Notes under the pieces: generated by a model | What the model was told of the DNA's origin: nothing | Databases searched by the model: none | What the model saw: the letters and a program-made list of their open reading frames with translations, nothing else | Source: Mugil cephalus | Lineage: Eukaryota > Chordata > Actinopteri > Mugiliformes > Mugilidae | Assembly: GCF_022458985.1 (NCBI RefSeq) | Contig: NC_061781.1 | Location: 24,036,001-24,100,000, forward strand | Direction: 5' to 3' | DNA: 64,000 nucleotides | Shown: piece by piece, positions 279 to 61,677 of the stretch | How positions within the stretch are numbered: the first letter of the stretch is position 1 | How the letters are laid out: each line of letters opens with the position of its first letter | Made by a program: the position numbers and the translations under genes

Positions 279-320
279 GTTTAAGGTGATCTACTGAGGG
301 CGAAGGTGGCTCATAAAAAC
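279..320 (+). promoter_or_regulatory. OR promoter module of gene 1
   Basis: A degenerate homeodomain-like stretch (tttaaggtga) and an O/E-like stretch (gatctactgaggg) precede the TATA-like box cataaaaac at 312-320, followed by tccacag. The order and spacing match the modules of the other OR genes, but this is the most diverged copy. It lies about 90 bp before the start codon. Function is inferred. Confidence 0.55.
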
Positions 321-407: not shown

Positions 408-1334
408 ATGGAAAATAAACAAAATGTATCTTATTTGATTCTTGAAGGGTATGTGGATATGAACAAGTACAGATATCTCTATTTTGTGATCATGTTTACA
501 GCGTATGTTCTGATACTCTGCAGTAATTCTACTATTGTGTGGCTCATCGTGGTTCACAGAAGCCTCCATGAACCTATGTACATGTTCATTGCTGGTTTGT
601 TAACAAACTCTGTTCTTTTCAGCACTCTTATCTATCCAAAGATTCTGATTGACATTTTATCTGAAAAACCAACCATGTTGTATTCAGTGTGTCTCTTTCA
701 GTGGTTTGCATATTACTCTCTGGCTGGTGCCGAATTCTTCCTGTTGGCAGCGATGGCTTACGACAGATATGTGTCTATATGTAAACCTCTGCAATATGCA
801 ACTATCATGAGGAAGAAAAATGTCAATATTTTGCTGGTTTTAGCTTGGCTTCTGCCGACTTGTCAGGTTGGAGTACCAATCTCAATGAATGCTAACAAAA
901 AACTCTGTAAATTTACTTTCAAAGGTATCTTATGTAACAGCACGGTTTACAAGCTTCACTGTGTGAGTTCAACATTTCTGAACATTTATGGTCTGATTGC
1001 TTTTGTGAACATTATCCTTCTCCCTCTGCTCTTCATACTTTTTACTTACATCAGGATATTTATAATAACCTACAGAAGCTGTAGAGAAGTGAGGAGAAAA
1101 GCTGCACAGACCTGCTTGCCTCACTTGATTGTTCTATTGAACTTTTCCTGTTTGAGTGCCTATGACGTCCTTCTTCTTCGGCTGGAAGTTGATTTCCCAA
1201 CAATTGTTCGGTTTATAATGACATTACAAATTATTTTGTATCATCCTTTGTTTAATCCAGTTATATATGGATTAAAGATGAAGGCGATTTATCAACATCT
1301 CAGGAAGTTGTTCTTTCCAGGCACAATGGTGTAA
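408..1334 (+). CDS. Odorant receptor, teleost type (OR 1)
   Basis: A 308-residue G-protein-coupled odorant receptor that should sit in the cilia of olfactory neurons. Sequon NVS lies at residues 6-8. TM1 is about 24-48, LHEPMY 53-58, TM2 about 57-80, Cys95 at the start of TM3, DRYVSICKP 119-127, and TM4 about 139-160. The second extracellular loop has Cys167, 176 and 185 and a second sequon NST at 177-179. TM5 is about 195-220, KAAQTCLPHL 231-240 opens TM6, and NPVIYG 283-288 lies in TM7. The reading frame is open from 360, but that upstream 'start' is TTG; the ATG at 408 gives the length shared by the family. The next gene downstream is its closest relative, nearly identical from TM1 to the C-terminus. 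Exact OR subfamily not resolved. Confidence 0.96.
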   Translation: MENKQNVSYLILEGYVDMNKYRYLYFVIMFTAYVLILCSNSTIVWLIVVHRSLHEPMYMFIAGLLTNSVLFSTLIYPKILIDILSEKPTMLYSVCLFQWFAYYSLAGAEFFLLAAMAYDRYVSICKPLQYATIMRKKNVNILLVLAWLLPTCQVGVPISMNANKKLCKFTFKGILCNSTVYKLHCVSSTFLNIYGLIAFVNIILLPLLFILFTYIRIFIITYRSCREVRRKAAQTCLPHLIVLLNFSCLSAYDVLLLRLEVDFPTIVRFIMTLQIILYHPLFNPVIYGLKMKAIYQHLRKLFFPGTMV

Positions 1335-2390
1335 TGTATGTGTCGTAATAAAATGCCTCTGAGAGGTTTGTTTCTCAGAGTAAAACACCTTACTGAGATG
1401 TTTGCTGTAGTTTTTGTGTTGCAGGAGTGGACATGTATTGTCCGGTTGTCTTTATCTGGGTTTGTCTTGTCTCTGTCTCAAGCTCAGTGCCTTGTTAGCC
1501 AAAGTGCTAGTAGAGTCCCAGACTAACGTATGCTTAAATTCGTTAATGTGCTATTTTAAGGCAGGAAGTGCTTTGGTTAAAAGAAAACTCCTACTTGCAG
1601 AGTATGCATAATAACATATGTCTGTCGACTGTTTTGTCTTTTTTTCAACTCAAATTTCCAATGGAGAAACCAACATGTTGTTTCCATCTTTAGGGGTTGG
1701 TTCCACTACTTGTCACTATCAGATCAACTGCATAATTTGTGCATGCGAGACGTTAACTGTACTCGGACAAACTGCCTCAAATGCATGTATAGAGACATTC
1801 ATGTTATATTTGTGCTGAAGGATGAGGTCTGGATATTCTGCAGATCCATGGTTTATTGTCGAACCACACATTTAACATATTTTTCACTCTCCTATTCTTT
1901 AACTATCAACCTGCATAACCCTGGTGCATAAAGAACGTATTGCCACCTTGGAGTCATTGCGTGCAACAACAACAGCTGATGATCACAATTCAGTCATTCT
2001 GCATTGCAGATGAGTTAAATGCGTTCAATTTTTTAAAATCAGATTAATCATGACAACGGATTCATCCATGTTAACGCGATATTTTTGGTAGCCCTAAAAT
2101 AAATTCGTATGAAACTGAACCGGCCTTTTGAACGTCTCTTTGAAAGGAATGGATCCACAAGATCCGGCTCCCTTCAAAAGGCCATAAATCCCTTCAGTCC
2201 AATCTCACTGAGTATTAATGAGGCATCAAAGCTTTAGAAATTGCACATAACTTTGTGTTTTACAACTTCAGTTCCTAGTTTATTACTCCTGGTTTCTCCT
2301 AACTCTAACACTTAGGAGTTAATTTGTACGTTTTCTTGATTTAATAACCTGAAGCTTTGTGTTCGTCACATGAAACGAACTGTTGGTTGA
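1335..2390. other. Intergenic; duplicated 3' flank and small repeat relic
   Basis: The first about 90 bp, including an AATAAA-like signal near 1346 and a 'gtttgtttctcagagtaaaac' block, match the 3' flank of the next OR gene, so it was copied with the gene. Around 2010-2098 short runs such as 'ttaaatgcgttcaatttttt' and 'gttaacgcgat...gtagccctaa' resemble the end of a common fish MITE with TTAACGCG-type ends. Nothing else recognised. Confidence 0.4.
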
Positions 2391-2392
2391 CG

Positions 2393-2435
2393 TTTTAATT
2401 AGATCCACCGAGGGTGGAATCGGACTGATAAAAAC
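2393..2435 (+). promoter_or_regulatory. OR promoter module of gene 2
   Basis: Homeodomain-like ttttaattag (2393-2402) touches the O/E-like gatccaccgaggg (2402-2414). It is followed by the TATA-like ctgataaaaacc (2425-2436) and atccacag. The module sits about 110 bp before the ATG. Confidence 0.65.
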
Positions 2436-2545
2436 CATCCACAGAGCTGAACTCTCCAGTGTAGAGTTGGATTTGTCTGGATCAGTGGACCTAGTTCTCT
2501 TCAGGGTCAAGTAACGTTGAATACCAGTGCACCCAGTACAAGCTA

Positions 2546-3469
2546 ATGGACAAACTCAATGACACATATTTGATTCTTGAAGGGTATGTGGACGTGAACA
2601 AGTACAGATATCTTTATTTTGTGATCATGTTTACAGCGTATGTTCTGATACTCTGCAGTAATTCTACTATTGTGTGGCTCATTGTGGTTCACAGAAACCT
2701 CCATGAACCTATGTACATGTTCATTGCAGGTTTGTTAACAAACTCTGTTCTTTTCAGCACTCTTATCTATCCAAAGATTCTGATTGACCTTTTGTCTGAA
2801 CAACCAACCATGTTGTATTCAGTGTGTCTCTTTCAGTGGTTTGCATATTACTCTCTGGCTGGTGCCGAATTCTTCCTGTTGGCAGCGATGGCTTACGACA
2901 GATATGTGTCTATATGTAAACCTCTGCAATATGCAACTATCATGAGGAAGAAAAATGTCAATATTTTGCTGGTTTTAGCTTGGCTTCTGCCGACTTGTCA
3001 GATTGGAGCACCAATCTCAATGAATGTTAACAAAAAACTCTGTAAATTCACTTTCAAAGGTATCTTATGTAACAGCACGGTTTACAAGCTTCACTGTGTG
3101 AGTTCAACATTTCTGAACATTTATGGTTTAGTTGGTTTTGTGAACATTGTATTCGTCCCTTTGCTCTTCATACTTTTTACTTACATCAGGATATTTATAA
3201 TAACCTACAGAAGCTGTAGAGAAGTGAGGAGAAAAGCTGCACAGACCTGCTTGCCTCACTTGATCGTTCTATTGAACTTTTCCTGTTTGACTGCCTATGA
3301 CGTCCTTCTTCTTCGGCTGGACGTTGAATTCCCAACAATTGTTCGGTTTATAATGACACTACAAATGATTTTGTATCATCCTTTGTTTAATCCAGTTATA
3401 TACGGATTAAAGATTAAGGCAATTTATAAGCATCTCAGGAAGTTGTTCTTTCCAGGCACAATGGTGTAA
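2546..3469 (+). CDS. Odorant receptor, teleost type (OR 2)
   Basis: A 307-residue seven-transmembrane odorant receptor, one residue shorter than its sister at 408 because of its N-terminus (sequon NDT at residues 5-7). The DRYVSICKP, three-cysteine loop 2, KAAQTCLPHL and NPVIYG landmarks are all present. It differs from the upstream copy mainly in the N-terminus, in TM5 (LVGFVNIVFVPLLF versus LIAFVNIILLPLLF) and in a few residues of TM6 and TM7, so this is a recent tandem pair. The start is the first ATG in frame and fits the family length. An AATAAA signal follows at about 3637. This is the last + strand gene before the array turns to the - strand. Confidence 0.97.
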   Translation: MDKLNDTYLILEGYVDVNKYRYLYFVIMFTAYVLILCSNSTIVWLIVVHRNLHEPMYMFIAGLLTNSVLFSTLIYPKILIDLLSEQPTMLYSVCLFQWFAYYSLAGAEFFLLAAMAYDRYVSICKPLQYATIMRKKNVNILLVLAWLLPTCQIGAPISMNVNKKLCKFTFKGILCNSTVYKLHCVSSTFLNIYGLVGFVNIVFVPLLFILFTYIRIFIITYRSCREVRRKAAQTCLPHLIVLLNFSCLTAYDVLLLRLDVEFPTIVRFIMTLQMILYHPLFNPVIYGLKIKAIYKHLRKLFFPGTMV

Positions 3470-5530
3470 TTTATGTGTCGTAATAAGAATAGACTGGGTG
3501 TGAGGGGTTTGTTTCTCAGAGTAAAACATTAACAGCTTGATCTGAGGACCACTTACTGAGATGTTTGCTGTAGTTTTTGTGTGTATTTCTATTCTAACCT
3601 GACCTATTCCTTTTCAAATCACTTTTTAATTCTCTGAAATAAAGTACACTATGTGCAATGGTCATTTCTCTATTTGTATTATTAAAGTGCATACCTGTAG
3701 GGCAAATCACTGTTGTGTGTATTAATCAAGTACAATACAGACACTTGATTTTAAGGAGTATTTAATGATTCATTCTTATGTAGTTTCTACTCTATATTTA
3801 TGAGACAGCTGTAGGTATGTTACAGTAGATAAAATGTTGTGGTATAGGGTATAGTGGTGAGCATTGCAGTGGACCTGGTTTCAAGGCCACAAGGAAGTCA
3901 GAAAACAAGATGGCCACCTCCACCAAAGCACTTGCCTTGTCTGAATATAACTTGGTGTGTTCAATATTTACATTGTAGAGTGCAAAGTGAAAGTAAAGTT
4001 GTTGTTTTTTTTATTTTATTTCTATTTCGTCTCTTGATATTAACTTGTATTATAACTATGATGTTAAACTAAATTTAGGTTCCAAAAATTTTAAATCGTA
4101 CAGATAACTTGAACTAACTTATGAGGTTTTTACTATAATTATTTGCACTGTATCTACAAGACCACACGAGGCAGAAGTTCATAAAAATATTCAAAAGTTT
4201 AATTAGAAATACACTATTAATAACAGTTTGCCACGAAAGTGTTTTTTCACACTGTTTTGGTTTTACCAGGCTATTGTTATTAGCTGTTGACCTGGGCTTG
4301 TAGTTTCCATATAATACTAAAAACCTTCAGTTACACTGTAAAAGCATTTCAACATATGTATGTGAAAAAATACTGTCTGTACGACAAAAACTTATCAGAA
4401 GTGCTACTGAACAGAATATTACAGGAGCTTACTGTTTACACACGTGGCGGCCATCTTGGAAACTCAACTCAGGTCTCGGGTTCTACTTGGAACTCAGAAA
4501 ATCCAACTTCTGGAATGCACCATGTGATCTACATCTATCAACCTCATCTTGCAAGGCAGCTTGTTACTTGTGAAATCCGTAGGGTCACTTGACAATCCTT
4601 CATGTTCTCTTGGCTGAGCAACTAGCTTCCTGGGGCCATGTTTGACAAGGTGCTTGAAGATGGAGTAAAGACAAAAAAAAATAAAGGCAGAGAGGATGAA
4701 TGAATGTAAGGAGGAATTGGGTAAGGGTAGTGAAGAGGGATGAATGGTGAAGGAGTTGGGTGAAGAGAACACGTAACCAGGTAGAAATCAAGCTTGATGG
4801 TGTTTAGAGGGGTGTTTGAGCTGAGGCGTGGCCCTGATACAGAACCTTTAGTGCGGTTTATACCTCTGCCTTAACCTACGCACATAGTCTACACCTGGTG
4901 TGAGCCACTTACACTTGTGCACCTGTGAGTCTGGCTCGCTCTGTAATAACTCCTCCCAAACACTAGTCGGTGCTGTGCCATTTTTGCCAGTTGGGCTAAT
5001 TTTTGTTTCTACTTCCTGCAAGTCCTAGTGTCACAGTCCCCCCTTTAAGCATGGAAATGTAGAAGCACATTCTTGATTACACTCCTGCTCAGTGAGTAAT
5101 AAAGATATGTGGATATAAAGGGAGATATAACTGTGGTGCCGTGTCAGTGACATTGTTGCTGAATGTCTGCATATATGACTCAGGGATGGGCGAAGCAAAT
5201 GGGTATGATTGGTCATTGAGCCAGAGGAATGCCAAAAAAGTTGAAGCCAGCTCAGCTTTTGTGTTGCACATCTTGTCTGACATTTAATGCTTCATATCGC
5301 AGATTTCCATTGAAATCTTGTGTAGTTTGTAGCTGTCTCACTGCTGGTGTGAATCCATCATTAGTAAACTAGTTAACCTACATGGATTGCTGAACATTTC
5401 AAGTTTAGCTTTTAAAGCTCTTTGGTCCACTGGCACTTTCCTACTTTGACAAATGGTTTGTTGATCTGCTGTCTGTAATGGCCCATGCTTCAACCAATCG
5501 CCAGTAATCACAAGTTATTTTTGACTTCGA
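3470..5530. other. Intergenic, tail-to-tail between blocks A and B
   Basis: After the duplicated 3' flank to about 3560 I recognise only the tRNA-like relic at 3848-3902. The small open frames at 4494-4791 and 5031-5283 have biased composition and no recognisable domain. No gene supported. The flank copied with the next OR gene begins about 5530. Confidence 0.5.
3848..3902 (+). repeat. tRNA-Gly-like relic lacking the anticodon arm (SINE head or tRNA pseudogene)
   Basis: GGTATAGTGGTGAGCAT (here at 3848-3864) is the D-arm and A-box text of tRNA-Gly(UCC). It continues directly with gcagtggacctggtttcaagg, which resembles the variable and T arm with a B-box. The anticodon arm between them is missing. 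It cannot fold as a tRNA, so it is a relic of a tRNA gene or of a tRNA-headed SINE. The family match is from memory. Confidence 0.4.
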
Positions 5531-8171: not shown

Positions 8172-8213
8172 AAGTATTTAATGACACTTGTCCTCCCTCC
8201 ATGGATCTCATTA
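8172..8213 (-). promoter_or_regulatory. OR promoter module of gene 3
   Basis: Read on the - strand: TTAATGAG, then ATCCATGGAGG (8196-8206 on +), then a TATA-like ttaaata about 20 bp on (near 8175-8183). The homeodomain-like and O/E-like parts match the module of the other genes; the TATA-like part is weak here. About 170-200 bp before the ATG. Confidence 0.65.
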
Positions 8214-8315
8214 AGTCCTCCACGAAGTGTTATTGTCATGTTTACAACTTTTCCAATCTCTAGTAGACCTCATCACTCTTGGCAGGGGTGTTACCTGAGA
8301 GACCCTCTGGTAGCT

Positions 8316-12257: not shown

Positions 12258-12298
12258 ATACTTAGTCTGACTTGTGCTCCCTCCATGGATCTCATTAA
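12258..12298 (-). promoter_or_regulatory. OR promoter module of the pseudogene
   Basis: On the - strand GTTAATGAG and ATCCATGGAGGGAG (12280-12298) are intact and match the sister gene. The TATA-like position is degenerate (actaagtattt). Confidence 0.55.
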
Positions 12299-12494
12299 CT
12301 CCTCCATGTAGAGCTGTTATCATGTTTACGACTTTTCGAAGCTCTGGAGGCCTCTGGTAAACCTCATTTACACAGGTGTACATTCTAAACTTCATCAATC
12401 AAGGTTGACAGCACCATTTTCTAAAAAAAATAAATAAATAAACAATTTGAAATGCTGAAGGGTTTAATATATTACACATTGCCGTGGTGTTGAT

Positions 12495-15751: not shown

Positions 15752-15796
15752 ATGTTTTTATCAGGATGCTTCACCCTCCACGGAGCTCATTAAACT
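15752..15796 (-). promoter_or_regulatory. OR promoter module of gene 4
   Basis: Read on the - strand: TTTAATGAG, GCTCCGTGGAGGG, then GATAAAAAC (15754-15762 on +) and TTTCACAGG. All four parts are in the standard order, about 200-230 bp before the ATG. Confidence 0.7.
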
Positions 15797-16610: not shown

Positions 16611-16678
16611 GGAAGTAAATCATTAGAGAACACCAGCTAAATTGTCTTTGGTGAAAGTGAAGCATATAGGTCTTGTCT

Positions 16679-16710
16679 TAGGGTTAGGGTTAGGCTTAGG
16701 GTTAGGGTTA
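16679..16710. repeat. Interstitial telomere-like repeat
   Basis: Five units of TTAGGG with one TTAGGC variant. Single gggttagggtt runs also occur near 32182 and a short one near 47262. Confidence 0.9.
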
Positions 16711-18345: not shown

Positions 18346-18384
18346 ATGTTTTTATGCTTCATCCTCCATGGATCTCATTAAATC
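18346..18384 (-). promoter_or_regulatory. OR promoter module of gene 5
   Basis: On the - strand: ATTTAATGAG, ATCCATGGAGG, then GCATAAAAAC (about 18349-18357 on +) and ATTCCACTGG. Complete module, about 220-250 bp before the ATG. Confidence 0.7.
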
Positions 18385-21354: not shown

Positions 21355-21398
21355 TGGTTTTTATGTGGCTGGTTCATCCTCTGTGGATCTCATTAAAC
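21355..21398 (-). promoter_or_regulatory. OR promoter module of gene 6
   Basis: On the - strand: GTTTAATGAG, ATCCACAGAGGATG, then CATAAAAACC (about 21357-21365 on +) and ATTTCACAGG. The O/E-like palindrome is altered (CCACAGAGG) but in place. Confidence 0.65.
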
Positions 21399-21499: not shown

Positions 21500-21715
21500 A
21501 ATTTTGGTGCAGATTCATAAAAGACAAAATAAAACAAAAGGTTAACGCAACAAAGAAAAAAATCTTATGCTATTTTTATTATTTTATTTAACTAGATTTT
21601 ACTTCTATTTCATTTTGTTTCATTTTAATCTCATTTTATTTTTATCTTTCTTTTTACTTGTGGTTCTTACTATGACCAAGAACTTTCCCTTGTGGATCAT
21701 TAAAGTCTAAATCTA
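21500..21715 (+). repeat. LINE-tail-like T-rich repeat
   Basis: A long T/A-rich stretch ending 'aactttcccttgtggatc' then 'attaaagtctaaatctatc' resembles a non-LTR retrotransposon 3' end. No coding sequence. Confidence 0.4.
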
Positions 21716-23470: not shown

Positions 23471-23511
23471 CTTTAATGAGTTCCATGGAGAACAGGCCAT
23501 CTAATAAAAAA
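23471..23511 (+). promoter_or_regulatory. OR promoter module of gene 7
   Basis: ctttaatgag (23471-23480), ttccatggaga (23481-23491), taataaaaa (23502-23510), then actttccgcg in place of ttccacag. About 190-220 bp before the ATG. A candidate 5' UTR intron runs 23613-23684 (AA/GTACTA ... TTTTAG/G). Confidence 0.75.
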
Positions 23512-27764: not shown

Positions 27765-29488
27765 AACGTCTCCTCTCTGGTGGGAAAGGAGCTGGTGCTT
27801 GTTGAAGAGGTTGAGCGCTGCTGACTAGATATAAGTCCCTGAGGGGAGTTGGACCCTCAACTTTTTTGGAGTTGCTCCGGTGAGAGTGGTGACCTGGTTG
27901 GGCTTTGCATGCCCCCAGAATCTCTGCCTGTTGGGGTTCTTCCGGGTGGATGAAAGGGTTGCTTCCCAGTGCCTTTGGGTCGGGGAACAGGTCCTGACTG
28001 TTGTTTGTGCTTATGCACCAAACAGCAGTCCAGAGTACCCACCATTTTTGGAGGACCCAGGATGGACGCTGGACTGCACCTCGACTGGAGACTCCATTGC
28101 TCTGCTGGTGGACTTCAACGCTCATGTGGGCAATGACAGCATGACCTGGAGGGGGGCAATTGGGAGGAACGGCCTGTCTGATCTGAACCGTAGCTGTGTT
28201 CAGTTATTGGACTTGAACATAAGGTTGTTCATCAGTACTCTTGGCACCATGACGGCCTAGGCTGTAGGTTGCTCTAACCTGCGACTGTATGTTTTTGACA
28301 CTCGGGTGAAGGGAAGAGCAGAGATGATCAACACCTGGTGGTGAGTTGGATCAGATGGCAGGGAAGGACACCATGCAGACCTGGTAGGCCCAAATGAATA
28401 GTGAGGGTCTGCTGGAAACGCATGGTGGTAGAAACCGTCAAGGTGGTCTTTAACTCCAACCTCCAGCAGAGCTCCAAAGTCATCCCAAGGGAGGTGGCAG
28501 ACATAAGCTCACTGGTGCTGAAATCCCTGAACTTGACATCTATCAGGCTGAAAAGGGAGGCCTGGAAGGCATGGTTGGTCTGTGGGTCTCCAGAAGTAGC
28601 TGACTAGTATTGTAGGGCACTCACTGAGGCAACAACTCGGGTGTGGGAGGAGTTTGGTAGGACTATGGAAGAAGACTATCGGTTGGCTCCAAAAAAGGTT
28701 CCGGCAAAACCATCCGACTTGCCCACACTCTTTGTATGTGGATGGCCCCTTGCTAAGGACCATTCAGTCCCTGTGCCAAAGAAGCGCAAGTTTGGTCCAT
28801 GTAACTGGCTGTAAGTTGGACTTGTTCCCAGTCAGGTTTGGACTCTGCCAGGGCTGACCTTTATCACCAGTTCTGTTCATAACTTTTATGAGCAGAATTT
28901 TGTAGCTAGGTGGTGGAGCGTGTTGAGTTCAGTGATTGGAGGATCTTGTCTCTGCTTTTTGCGGATGATGTGGTCCTCTTAGAGTGTGAAGTGGCTGGGA
29001 TGAAGATAAACACCTCCAAGTCTGAGATCATAGTCCTCAGACAGGGTGGATTAGCCAGTCCAGGTAGGGGAGGAGGTCCTGCCTCAAGTGGAGGAGTTCA
29101 AATATCTTGTGATCTTGTTCATGCGTGAGGGTAGAATGAAGCATGAGATCAATAGATGCACCAGAGCGGCATCTGCAGTGATGTGGGCGCTCAACCAGTC
29201 TGTCATGGTGAAGAGAGAGCTAAACTAAAAGCTGTAGCTGGGTAATGACCGAAAGTGGCCCAAATGAGCAGGGTGGCCAGGCTCAGCCTTAGAGATAGGG
29301 TTAGGAGCTCGGACACACGGGAGGAACTCAGAGTAGAATCGCTGCTCTTCCACATTGAGAGGAGTTGAGTTTAGGTGGTTCGGGCGTCTGGTAAGGTTTG
29401 CAAGAATTGCATGTACCACCGGTAGGAGGCCTTGGGGTCGGCCCAGGACACAATGGAGGGACAGAACAACGGAACAGAACAGAACACT
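27765..29488 (+). mobile_element. Non-LTR retrotransposon remnant with endonuclease and reverse transcriptase pieces
   Basis: Contains an endonuclease segment (DFNAHVGNDSMTWRGAIGRNG at 28111-28170), then VFNSNLQQSSKVIPREVADI, then reverse transcriptase text (LLFADDVVLL at 28960-28990, INTSKSEIIVL) and a C-terminal TGRRPWGRPRTQWRD. Multiple internal deletions and frame breaks. It lies between a duplicated OR flank (27655-27735) and its continuation (from 29490), so it inserted after that duplication. Confidence 0.8.
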
Positions 29489-29748
29489 TAACAATGGTGT
29501 GGAGGAAAAATCCACACTTTATACAAAAATCTCAGTGAAACAAAACCAAACACTGAGTCAGCTGATGGGGTCACTAAGGTCAAAACAGAAACACTGATCA
29601 AACATTTGATGTAGTAGGGAGAGAGAAGTCGGCGCTCTAAGTATTGTATTACTAACATAAAGATGAAGTAATGTTGAATGAGGAAGTTACACCCCCAAGT
29701 GAAAAAAAGCAAACACTGTTAGTTTAGGGTTGATGAAGTTACAACAGA

Positions 29749-29790
29749 CTTTAATGAGTTCCATGGAGAACAGGCCATCTAATAAAAAAC
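29749..29790 (+). promoter_or_regulatory. OR promoter module of gene 8
   Basis: ctttaatgag, ttccatggaga, taataaaaaa, then tttccacgg. Candidate 5' UTR intron 29867-29936 (70 nt; CAA/GTACTA ... TTTTAG/G). Confidence 0.75.
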
Positions 29791-29945
29791 TTTCCACGGA
29801 CATCAGCATATACCAGGTGCATCTGAAGGTCAGCTATCTGCAAAGAAACTCTCTCCACCAATGCAAGTACTATTTTTGTCATGTAAAAGTCTTTATCCAT
29901 GTTATGCAATCTTTTACAACTGAACGTTTCTTTTAGGAAACTTTA

Positions 29946-30872
29946 ATGGGTGGTGAAGTTAACATAACATATATAACTTTAGATGGGCATGTCGACTTGG
30001 AAACATACAGGTACCTGTATTTTGTGATCATGTTTACTACTTACATTCTAATAATATGCTGTAATTTCACCATTGTGTATCTTATTTGGATGCATGAAAA
30101 CCTGCATGAACCGATGTATGTTTTCATTGCAGCCTTACTTATAAACTCTGTTGTCTTCAGCACTAATATCTATCCAAAGTTTTTAATTGACATGTTATCT
30201 GAAAAGCAGATCATATCGTACTCAGCCTGCATTTTGCAGTTTTTCATATTTTATTGTTTAGGTTGTGCAGAATTCTTACTTTTGGCTGTCATGTCCTATG
30301 ACAGATATGTGTCTATATGTAAACCTCTGCAATATCCAGCTATCATGACAAAAGACAGAGTAAGTATTTTCCTGGCTTTAGCTTGGACTGTCCCTGCTTG
30401 TGTGATTGCTGTTCCATCAATAATGAGTGCTGACATGAAACTCTGTCATTTCACTCTGAATGGAATTTTATGCAACAATTCAATTTACAATCTGCACTGT
30501 GTGAGCTCAGTAGCACGATCTGTATTTGGTGCTGTTGCTCTGGTAGTCACTGCACTTTTCCCTCTGCTCTTCATCCTTTTCACATACACTAGAATACTTA
30601 TAATAACTTCTCGATGTTCTAGAGAAGTCAGGAAAAAGGCTGCAGAGACCTGTCTACCACATCTGCTGGTTCTAGTCAGCTACTCCTTTTTGTGTGCATT
30701 TGATGTCGCTATTGTTCGATTGGGAGCTGATTTTCCTAAAATTGTCCGTCTGATAATGACTTTGCAGGTGGTTTTGTATCATCCTCTGTTCAATCCAATA
30801 ATTTATGGGTTAAAGTTGAAAGAAATATCTAAGCATTTAAAGAGATTGCTCTGTCAAACTAAACTGACCTGA
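29946..30872 (+). CDS. Odorant receptor, teleost type (OR 8)
   Basis: A 308-residue receptor, sequon NIT 6-8. TM3 reads FFIFYCLGCAEFLLLAVMSYDRY. Loop 2 is KLCHFTLNGILCNNSIYNLHC, as in the gene at 44301. PLFNPIIYG lies in TM7. It ends RLLCQTKLT. Sister of the gene at 23694 by flanks and most of the coding region. The ATG lies 10 nt after the acceptor ttcttttag. Confidence 0.97.
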   Translation: MGGEVNITYITLDGHVDLETYRYLYFVIMFTTYILIICCNFTIVYLIWMHENLHEPMYVFIAALLINSVVFSTNIYPKFLIDMLSEKQIISYSACILQFFIFYCLGCAEFLLLAVMSYDRYVSICKPLQYPAIMTKDRVSIFLALAWTVPACVIAVPSIMSADMKLCHFTLNGILCNNSIYNLHCVSSVARSVFGAVALVVTALFPLLFILFTYTRILIITSRCSREVRKKAAETCLPHLLVLVSYSFLCAFDVAIVRLGADFPKIVRLIMTLQVVLYHPLFNPIIYGLKLKEISKHLKRLLCQTKLT

Positions 30873-34370: not shown

Positions 34371-34411
34371 CTTTAATGAGATCCATGGAGAATGACGCGT
34401 TCTAATAAAAG
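34371..34411 (+). promoter_or_regulatory. OR promoter module of gene 9
   Basis: ctttaatgag (34371-34380), atccatggaga (34381-34391), taataaaa (34403-34410), then aaatccata for ttccacag. Candidate 5' UTR intron 34521-34590 (70 nt; GCAG/GTTGTATG ... TTTTAG/G). Confidence 0.78.
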
Positions 34412-34599
34412 AAAAAATCCATATACTCAGTCCATTCACTTTCTGAACTCTGGACATCAACATATACCAGGTGCATCTGAAGGACATCGATCTGGGAAGA
34501 AACAATATCCATCATTGCAGGTTGTATGTGAGTCATGTAAAAGCCTTTATCCATATTATCCTTGCTGATCATGCATTCCATTTGTTTTAGGAAACATTA

Positions 34600-39428: not shown

Positions 39429-39470
39429 CTTTAATGAGATCCATGGAGAATGACGCGTTCTAATAAAAGA
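39429..39470 (+). promoter_or_regulatory. OR promoter module of gene 10
   Basis: ctttaatgag, atccatggaga, taataaaa (39461-39468), then aaatccaca. Candidate 5' UTR intron 39579-39648 (70 nt). Confidence 0.78.
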
Positions 39471-44050: not shown

Positions 44051-44091
44051 CTTTAATGAGATCCATGGAGAATGACGCGTTCTAATAAAAA
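44051..44091 (+). promoter_or_regulatory. OR promoter module of gene 11
   Basis: ctttaatgag, atccatggaga, taataaaaaa (44083 on), then aaatccaca. Candidate 5' UTR intron 44213-44291 (79 nt). Confidence 0.78.
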
Positions 44092-48203: not shown

Positions 48204-48245
48204 CTTTAATGAGATCCATGGAGAATGAACCGTTCTAATAAAAGA
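48204..48245 (+). promoter_or_regulatory. OR promoter module of gene 12
   Basis: ctttaatgag, atccatggaga, taataaaa (48236-48243), then aaatccaca. Candidate 5' UTR intron 48354-48442 (89 nt). Confidence 0.78.
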
Positions 48246-54072: not shown

Positions 54073-54127
54073 TGTAATGGGCCTCCAGAGTGGAGATCCT
54101 TGGAGGGTGCAGCAATCTGATAAAAAC
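54073..54127 (+). promoter_or_regulatory. OR promoter module of gene 13
   Basis: tgtaatggg (54073-54081), then after 13 bp gatccttggaggg (54095-54107), then ctgataaaaac (54117-54127) and tttccacag. This sub-type has a wider gap between the first two sites than genes 7-12. Candidate acceptor 'tcatttag' at 54281-54288, with donors at 54193 or 54225. Confidence 0.72.
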
Positions 54128-57532: not shown

Positions 57533-57587
57533 TGTAATGGGCCTCTAGATTTGAGATCCTTGGAGGGTCCAGCAATCTGATAAAAAC
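57533..57587 (+). promoter_or_regulatory. OR promoter module of gene 14
   Basis: tgtaatggg, gatccttggaggg (57555-57567), ctgataaaaac (57577-57587), tttccacag. Same sub-type as genes 13 and 15. Confidence 0.72.
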
Positions 57588-61622: not shown

Positions 61623-61677
61623 TGTAATGGGCCTCCTGAGTTGAGATCCTTGGAGGGTCCAGCAATCTGATAAAAAC
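61623..61677 (+). promoter_or_regulatory. OR promoter module of gene 15
   Basis: tgtaatggg, gatccttggaggg (61645-61657), ctgataaaaac (61667-61677), tttccacag. Same sub-type as genes 13 and 14. Confidence 0.72.

Follow-up and report, generated by a model that had tools for sequence, protein, structure and literature searches.

A homeodomain-O/E-like composite at a near-fixed distance from a TATA-like box upstream of most odorant receptor loci in a Mugil cephalus gene cluster

Do the odorant receptor (OR) genes of Mugil cephalus share one proximal module, and if so, what might read it? The evidence comes from 16 paralogous OR loci in one 64-kb stretch of DNA (the window) of one species. The ORF listing for the window contains 15 intact ATG open reading frames (307–309 aa) and one truncated frame. 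The loci, numbered 1–16 from left to right, lie on both strands, 11 on the plus strand and five (genes 3–7) on the minus strand. All five proteins tested (genes 1, 3, 6, 10, and 16) match Pfam 7tm_4 (PF13853, 'Olfactory receptor') above cut-off; with an intronless coding exon of about 310 codons, the loci fit an OR gene cluster. Protein identity separates five clades: A (1 and 2), B (3 and 4), C (5–7), D (8–13), and E (14–16). Cross-clade identity, with gene 4 left out, is 0.56–0.69 for protein and 0.47–0.74 for fourfold sites; gene 4 was assigned to clade B from its upstream and start sequence. Genes 1 and 2 (408–3469) share 0.97 of their fourfold coding sites, and their upstream flanks, at 0.53 over aligned columns, agree no better than unrelated flanks do; the coding exon may have undergone gene conversion. 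An interstitial TTAGGG repeat of 5.5 copies is located at 16678–16710.

The module is described here at gene 10. A composite at 34372–34391, reading TTTAATGAG-A-TCCATGGAGA, is followed by the TATA-like AATAAAAG. The O/E-like block begins 2 bp past TAATGA, which is 1 bp past TAATGAG. The features at gene 10 and the modules of the other loci are as follows; each module runs from the composite start, or in genes 14–16 from the displaced TAATGG, to the T of the TATA-like box or its aligned place.

34372..34406, plus strand: entire gene 10 module, composite start to TATA T
34372..34380, plus strand: gene 10 homeodomain-type block TTTAATGAG, TAATGA core at 34374–34379; clade-averaged identity 0.67
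34382..34391, plus strand: gene 10 O/E-like block TCCATGGAGA, one mismatch to TCCCYNGRGA; identity of 34381–34390, 0.81
34404..34411, plus strand: gene 10 TATA-like box AATAAAAG, T at 34406, 34 bp from composite start
34418..34423, plus strand: TCCATA, weak gene 10 counterpart of the TTCCACAG block; block identity 0.57
34434..34438, plus strand: candidate gene 10 start sites (YYCA) predicted from sequence, A at T+28 (34434) or T+32 (34438)
280..314, plus strand: gene 1 module, degenerate (TTTAAGGTGATCTACTGAGG), TATA T at 314
2394..2429, plus strand: gene 2 module, homeodomain block TTAATTAG, TATA T at 2429
8180..8215, minus strand: gene 3 module, TTAAAT in place of ATAAAA
11149..12068, minus strand: gene 4, truncated OR pseudogene, homeodomain-O/E composite retained
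12264..12299, minus strand: gene 4 (truncated pseudogene) module, CTAAGT at the aligned place and its own ATAAAAA 19 bp farther down
15760..15794, minus strand: gene 5 module
18354..18382, minus strand: gene 6 module, composite-to-TATA spacing 28 bp, 6 bp shorter
21363..21397, minus strand: gene 7 module, O/E block TCCACAGAGG
23472..23505, plus strand: gene 8 module
29750..29783, plus strand: gene 9 module
39430..39464, plus strand: gene 11 module
44052..44086, plus strand: gene 12 module
48205..48239, plus strand: gene 13 module
54075..54121, plus strand: gene 14 module, displaced TAATGG at 54075, GAGATCCTTGGAGG from 54093, TATA T at 54121
57535..57581, plus strand: gene 15 module, displaced TAATGG at 57535, TATA T at 57581
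61625..61671, plus strand: gene 16 module, displaced TAATGG at 61625, TATA T at 61671

An earlier note on this DNA claimed one compact module of four blocks at every locus. The module is far beyond chance, yet less uniform than that. The best upstream 19-base match is oriented in sense with its gene at all 16 loci, on both strands and including the pseudogene, whose composite is kept; the composite starts 128–253 bp before the ATG. 'Every locus' is nevertheless an overstatement. The match is weak (12–14 of 19 bases) in genes 1 and 14–16. Columns G8, T10, C11, G16, A17, and G18 are constant in all 16, and G6, A7, and C12 in 15; the most constant core is GAG-N-TCC-NNN-GAG. TAATGA (TAATTA in gene 2) precedes this core in genes 2–13. 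TTAATGAG is exact in 11 loci (genes 3–13), appears as TTAATTAG in gene 2, is degenerate in gene 1, and is absent in place in genes 14–16; TCCATGGAG is exact in nine (genes 3, 4, 6, and 8–13). ATAAAA stands exactly at its aligned place in 14 of the 16, the exceptions being genes 3 and 4. The fourth block, TTCCACAG, does not hold as a general feature: it is exact only in genes 14–16, one or two bases off in genes 1, 2, 5–7, and 9, weaker in genes 8 and 10–13 (hence weak at the gene 10 locus), and was not found in genes 3 and 4 in the comparison of the 16 loci.

The spacing is more regular. From composite start to the T of the TATA-like box, the distances in genes 1, 2, 5, 6, 7, 8, and 9 are 34, 35, 34, 28, 34, 33, and 33 bp, and 34 bp in each of genes 10–16. 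The corresponding point of genes 3 and 4 lies at 35 bp and reads TTAAAT and CTAAGT. The fixed spacing that the earlier note saw in every copy therefore holds as 33–35 bp in 13 of the 14 loci with ATAAAA in place, and fails in genes 3 and 4, which lack ATAAAA in place, and in gene 6. The standard deviation of this distance is 0.6 bp without gene 6 and 1.6 bp with it, as against 34 bp for the distance from T to ATG (94–225 bp). The spacer between composite and TATA-like box measures 12–14 bp in 15 of the 16 loci, and its letters are less well kept (identity 0.51, from the 37 of 97 cross-clade pairs of equal length). In gene 6 (18354–18382, minus strand) the spacing is shorter by 6 bp, about half a helical turn, and the coding region is intact; this locus is a natural test of phasing.

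The homeodomain site TAATKR is in place in 12 loci (genes 2–13), displaced upstream in three, and missing from gene 1. Its gap to TCC is a constant 2 bp in genes 2–13 and 16 bp in genes 14–16, so that the stereotyped short gap is a property of 12 of the 16 loci. Genes 10–13 carry an A-rich insertion that lengthens the distance from TATA to TCCA; with the 16-bp gap of genes 14–16, this bears out the earlier note's view that there are two spacing sub-types. In genes 14–16 (54075–54100, 57535–57560, and 61625–61650), TAAT is lost and GAG-A-TCC-NNN-GAG is kept exactly, with the two GAGs 10 bp apart. A second, weak composite-like TAATGGGCCTCC (gap 1) is present in clade E at 54075 and 61625.

Could shared words of this kind arise anyway among related genes? 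In an unanchored search of the 300 bp before the ATG, taking one gene per clade, TTAATGAGATCCATGGAGG was the best 19-base word common to the five clades in every one of the 40 combinations sampled from the possible 216 (these samples overlap and are therefore not independent). The mean shared-word score was 63.8 in this region, compared with 49.8 at 900–600 bp upstream (where the control for gene 1 came from gene 2), 52.4 downstream, and 51.0 in shuffled sequence. At least 16 of the 19 consensus bases are matched 12 times in the window, always in sense and upstream of genes 2–13, and 20 dinucleotide-shuffled copies of the window average 0.0 such matches; at 14 or more bases there are 15 matches, 14 at OR loci and one stray at 4501 (minus strand), as against 3.45 per shuffled window. 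When 1-kb upstream regions are aligned locally, the top-scoring alignment takes in part of the module on both sides in 83 of the 97 cross-clade pairs.

Conservation was compared between blocks and flanks. In the multiple alignment (columns with bases in at least 10 of the 16 loci), clade-averaged identity is 0.81 for the O/E block, 0.67 for the homeodomain block, 0.68 for the TATA-like box, and 0.57 for TCCACA. Elsewhere it is 0.43 (spacer between composite and TATA-like box), 0.29 (upstream flank), 0.22 (presumed intron), and 0.65 (first 60 coding bases). Pairwise cross-clade identity gives a smaller contrast in the same direction (composite, 0.75; upstream, 0.61; downstream, 0.65); plain pairwise alignments inflate unrelated flanks, and the downstream stretch takes in coding sequence of genes 1 and 2. 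The composite exceeds the upstream flank in 78 of the 97 cross-clade pairs and, within clades, in 15/15 (D), 3/3 (C), 1/1 (A), 1/1 (B), and 2/3 (E); it exceeds the downstream flank in 68 of 97, and in 15/15, 3/3, 0/1, 1/1, and 1/3, respectively. The earlier note had made its reading depend on blocks being better conserved than their flanks, and block identity does exceed that of the flanks.

These figures bear on the possibility that the block reflects nothing but recent shared ancestry, through tandem duplication or gene conversion, without selection. Genes 10 and 11 are near-identical well beyond the module, and the 0.97 of fourfold sites shared by genes 1 and 2 is also as this explanation would predict. 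Against it, cross-clade column identity is 0.81 in the O/E block but drops to 0.29 in the upstream flank and to 0.22 within the presumed intron, and the upstream identity of genes 1 and 2 (0.53 over aligned columns) is close to the cross-clade value of 0.61. We regard shared ancestry without selection as highly improbable.

What would bind the two halves of the composite? TAATGA and O/E sites are published elements of OR promoters and enhancers (PMC8213819, PMC5638857, and PMC3247239). TAATGA is the characteristic homeodomain site of mouse OR enhancers (PMC8213819) and TAATKR a printed homeodomain consensus (PMC5638857). The earlier note's proposal that the first block is a homeodomain site is supported, since TTAATGA contains TAATGA. 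For the second block, two printed consensus sequences were considered: TCCCYNGRGA, the O/E core of V$NOLF (PMC3247239, Table 1), and YYYCARRRR (PMC5638857). TCC/TCT-NNN-GAG fits TCCCYNGRGA with one mismatch in the first nine positions at 15 loci and with two in gene 1. The centred YYYCARRRR fits 13 loci within one mismatch (genes 3–6 and 8–16, exactly in 14–16) and does not fit genes 1, 2, and 7. The same three genes break the palindrome TCCATGGA, which the earlier note had placed at the centre, and keep TCC/TCT-NNN-GAG; the palindrome was dropped as the conserved feature.

The two registers were also compared by gap, with both register and gap tests picked after the sequences had been inspected. 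TAATKR followed after 2 bp by TCCCYNGRGA (up to two mismatches) has 12 matches in the window, all at genes 2–13; at 60 other gaps (0 to 60), the same pairing has a mean of 0.5 matches and a maximum of 5 (gap 58). TAATKR followed after 1 bp by YYYCARRRR (up to one mismatch) has 18 matches, 10 of them at modules (genes 3–6 and 8–13), with a mean of 3.9 and a maximum of 13 at other gaps. The TCCCYNGRGA register (gap 2) thus fits more loci than the YYYCARRRR register (gap 1) and is favoured by conservation, because GAG is constant and the palindrome is broken in genes 1, 2, and 7. Of the 16 modules, 10 match a composite search pattern printed in PMC11643329; this pattern carries little weight alone because 248 places in the window match it.

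The O/E reading of the second block is supported in part. One mismatch to TCCCYNGRGA at 15 of the 16 loci speaks for it; however, where the consensus core has C as its fourth base, the loci have A (12), T (three), or G (one), and no module matches canonical TCCCNNGGGA with one mismatch or fewer, whereas six other places in the window do. The doubt about EBF already voiced in the earlier note stands for this last reason. The sole exact TCCCNNGGGA of the window (TCCCAAGGGA) is located at 28483–28492, between genes 8 and 9, and the surrounding stretch 28001–30000 is richer in G+C (0.474); a distal element at this site is possible. A further composite-like match, TAATGATCCACAAGGGA, lies at 21702 (minus strand), about 300 bp further upstream of the gene 7 module on the same strand.

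A plain homeodomain plus O/E reading leaves genes 14–16 unexplained, because TAAT is lost there and the GAG before TCC is kept. In an alternative core-promoter reading, a protein other than EBF would recognise TCC-NNN-GAG, possibly together with the GAG in front of it; a zinc-finger protein could, for instance, take GAGATCCNNNGAG as one site, and the homeodomain site would be a separate helper. The missing C and the retention of GAG at positions 6–8 in 15 of the 16 loci (G8 in all), even where TAAT has gone, would both be expected of such a reader. On the other side, 15 loci depart from the printed O/E core only once over its first nine positions, and the site lies beside TAATGA at a fixed gap, the known position of O/E sites in OR enhancers. 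A non-EBF reader seems unlikely to us on balance, and a good deal less far-fetched than shared ancestry.

The region downstream of the TATA-like box was inspected for a start site. A loose initiator, YYCANH, with its A at T+28 to T+32, is present in 13 of the 16 loci (not in genes 6, 7, and 9), against a background of 0.077 per locus. YYCANH is also found at T+10–14 in 10 loci and at T+20–24 in nine, and windows from T+35 to T+89 have it in 0–2 loci each; because it is so frequent nearer the TATA-like box, it does not by itself fix the start. T+28–32 is favoured as it lies at the usual distance from TATA box to start, and the TTCCACAG block sits between the two. At T+71 to T+86, genes 1, 2, 5–7, and 14–16 have donor-like sites, CAG|GTAACT, CAA|GTAACG, and CAG|GTATCT; the donor-like sequence is CAGGTAACT in genes 1 and 5–7, CAAGTAACG in gene 2, and CAGGTATCT in genes 14–16. 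GT is missing at this position in genes 8–13, and in gene 1 the donor-like site is 8 bp before the ATG. These sites suggest a short 5' exon and an intron in the 5' UTR.

Our preferred reading, to which we give a probability of about 0.65, is that the module is a proximal core promoter, in which an LHX2-type homeodomain site abuts a variant EBF-type O/E site, followed by a TATA-like box with the start downstream. The promoter part of this reading is supported at the level of sequence: the TATA distance is fixed, an initiator-like site lies at the usual distance, and conservation is far above that of the flanks. A LIM-homeodomain factor of the LHX2 type would bind TAATGAG and, beside it, an O/E factor of the EBF type would bind the adjoining variant TCC-NNN-GAG. 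TBP would sit on the TATA-like box about 20 bp (two helical turns) downstream of the composite, and transcription would begin some 30 bp past that box. A short 5' exon would follow, ending in several genes at the splice-donor-like CAGGTAWCT, and expression would be predicted in olfactory neurons. The module would then act like a cooperative homeodomain-O/E platform feeding a TATA promoter. Alternatively, the module may be bound and functional while transcription starts at another place; its role would then be that of a local enhancer or of an element for escape from silencing. The composite is indeed an enhancer mark in mouse (PMC5608512), but the fixed distance to the TATA-like box, the well-placed initiator-like site, and the sense orientation at all 16 loci all argue for a promoter, and we think this alternative improbable.

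How does the module compare with known OR enhancers and promoters? In mouse, adjacent Lhx2 and Ebf sites form the Greek Island composite, with strong copies in 35 of 63 islands and enrichment over OR promoters (Monahan 2017, PMC5608512); the letters of its Ebf half drift while the place is kept (PMC5608512). A preprint puts the two sites 1 bp apart and the composite as significantly depleted from OR promoters (PMC11643329). The class I J element lost all or most of its activity when its composite was mutated (PMC7804114). The modules described here resemble this composite in having a homeodomain site and then an O/E site at a stereotyped short distance, 1 bp (counting TAATGAG) or 2 bp (counting TAATGA), and in an O/E half that drifts in letters and stays in place; the earlier note overlooked these touching sites at a fixed gap. 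They differ in that C is always absent from the fourth base of the O/E site and in that, at most genes, they lie at a fixed distance before a TATA-like box, whereas the mouse composites lie in distal enhancers and are rarer at OR promoters. By position, at 128–253 bp before the ATG rather than distal, they are not Greek Islands. Position and homeodomain site would place them among OR promoters, and geometry would place 12 of the 16 among the composites, with putative occupancy.

The extended homeodomain site of the H, P, and A/J enhancers (CTTTTTAATGA; 21-mer ACATAACTTTTTAATGAGTCT; PMC8213819) contains TTTAATGAG letter for letter. TTTAATGAG recurs in 10 of the 16 modules (genes 5–13), or 11 with the TTAATGAG part in genes 3 and 4. 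In those enhancers the site is solitary or multimerised; here it is a promoter site that abuts an O/E-like one. Several mouse OR and TAAR enhancers, though not the J element, drive reporters in zebrafish olfactory neurons (PMC8213717 and PMC5638857), and the reading machinery is therefore at least partly shared. Mammalian OR proximal promoters likewise have O/E and homeodomain sites near the start, TATA boxes in part, and 5' UTR introns; unlike here, a fixed composite or a fixed TATA distance is not described in the portions of the two reports drawn on (PMC3247239 and PMC3247230). The earlier note had thought the TATA-like box itself worthy of remark; it is less odd when 39% of 314 mouse OR promoters have one called at −60 to −10 (PMC3247239), although ATAAAA is in place in 14 of the 16 loci here. 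The titles and abstract openings searched, mostly outside the subscription literature, describe no such fish OR promoter module. Fish OR clusters are reportedly the subject of papers by Dugas and Ngai (2001) and Sato (2007).

The touching sites bear on how one receptor is chosen, because in mouse such pairs are a mark of distant enhancers and seldom occur where receptor genes start. In the mouse model of single-receptor choice, enhancers carry the composites, and the sites at promoters are weak and separated (PMC5608512). A tentative and rather doubtful extension is that in this lineage the cooperative homeodomain-O/E composite, reserved in mouse for distal Greek Islands, has been built into the OR core promoter in phase with TATA. 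Each promoter might then resist silencing and join or seed an enhancer hub alone, choice would come down to composite promoters competing on equal terms, and promoters of this kind could be the ancestors of mammalian Greek Islands, the composites having been lost from genes and kept by distal elements. If true, OR promoters with abutting sites at a fixed TATA distance would make the mouse division of labour between enhancer and promoter testable, and they raise the question whether the separation of sites at promoters is needed for singular choice or is a mammalian trait.
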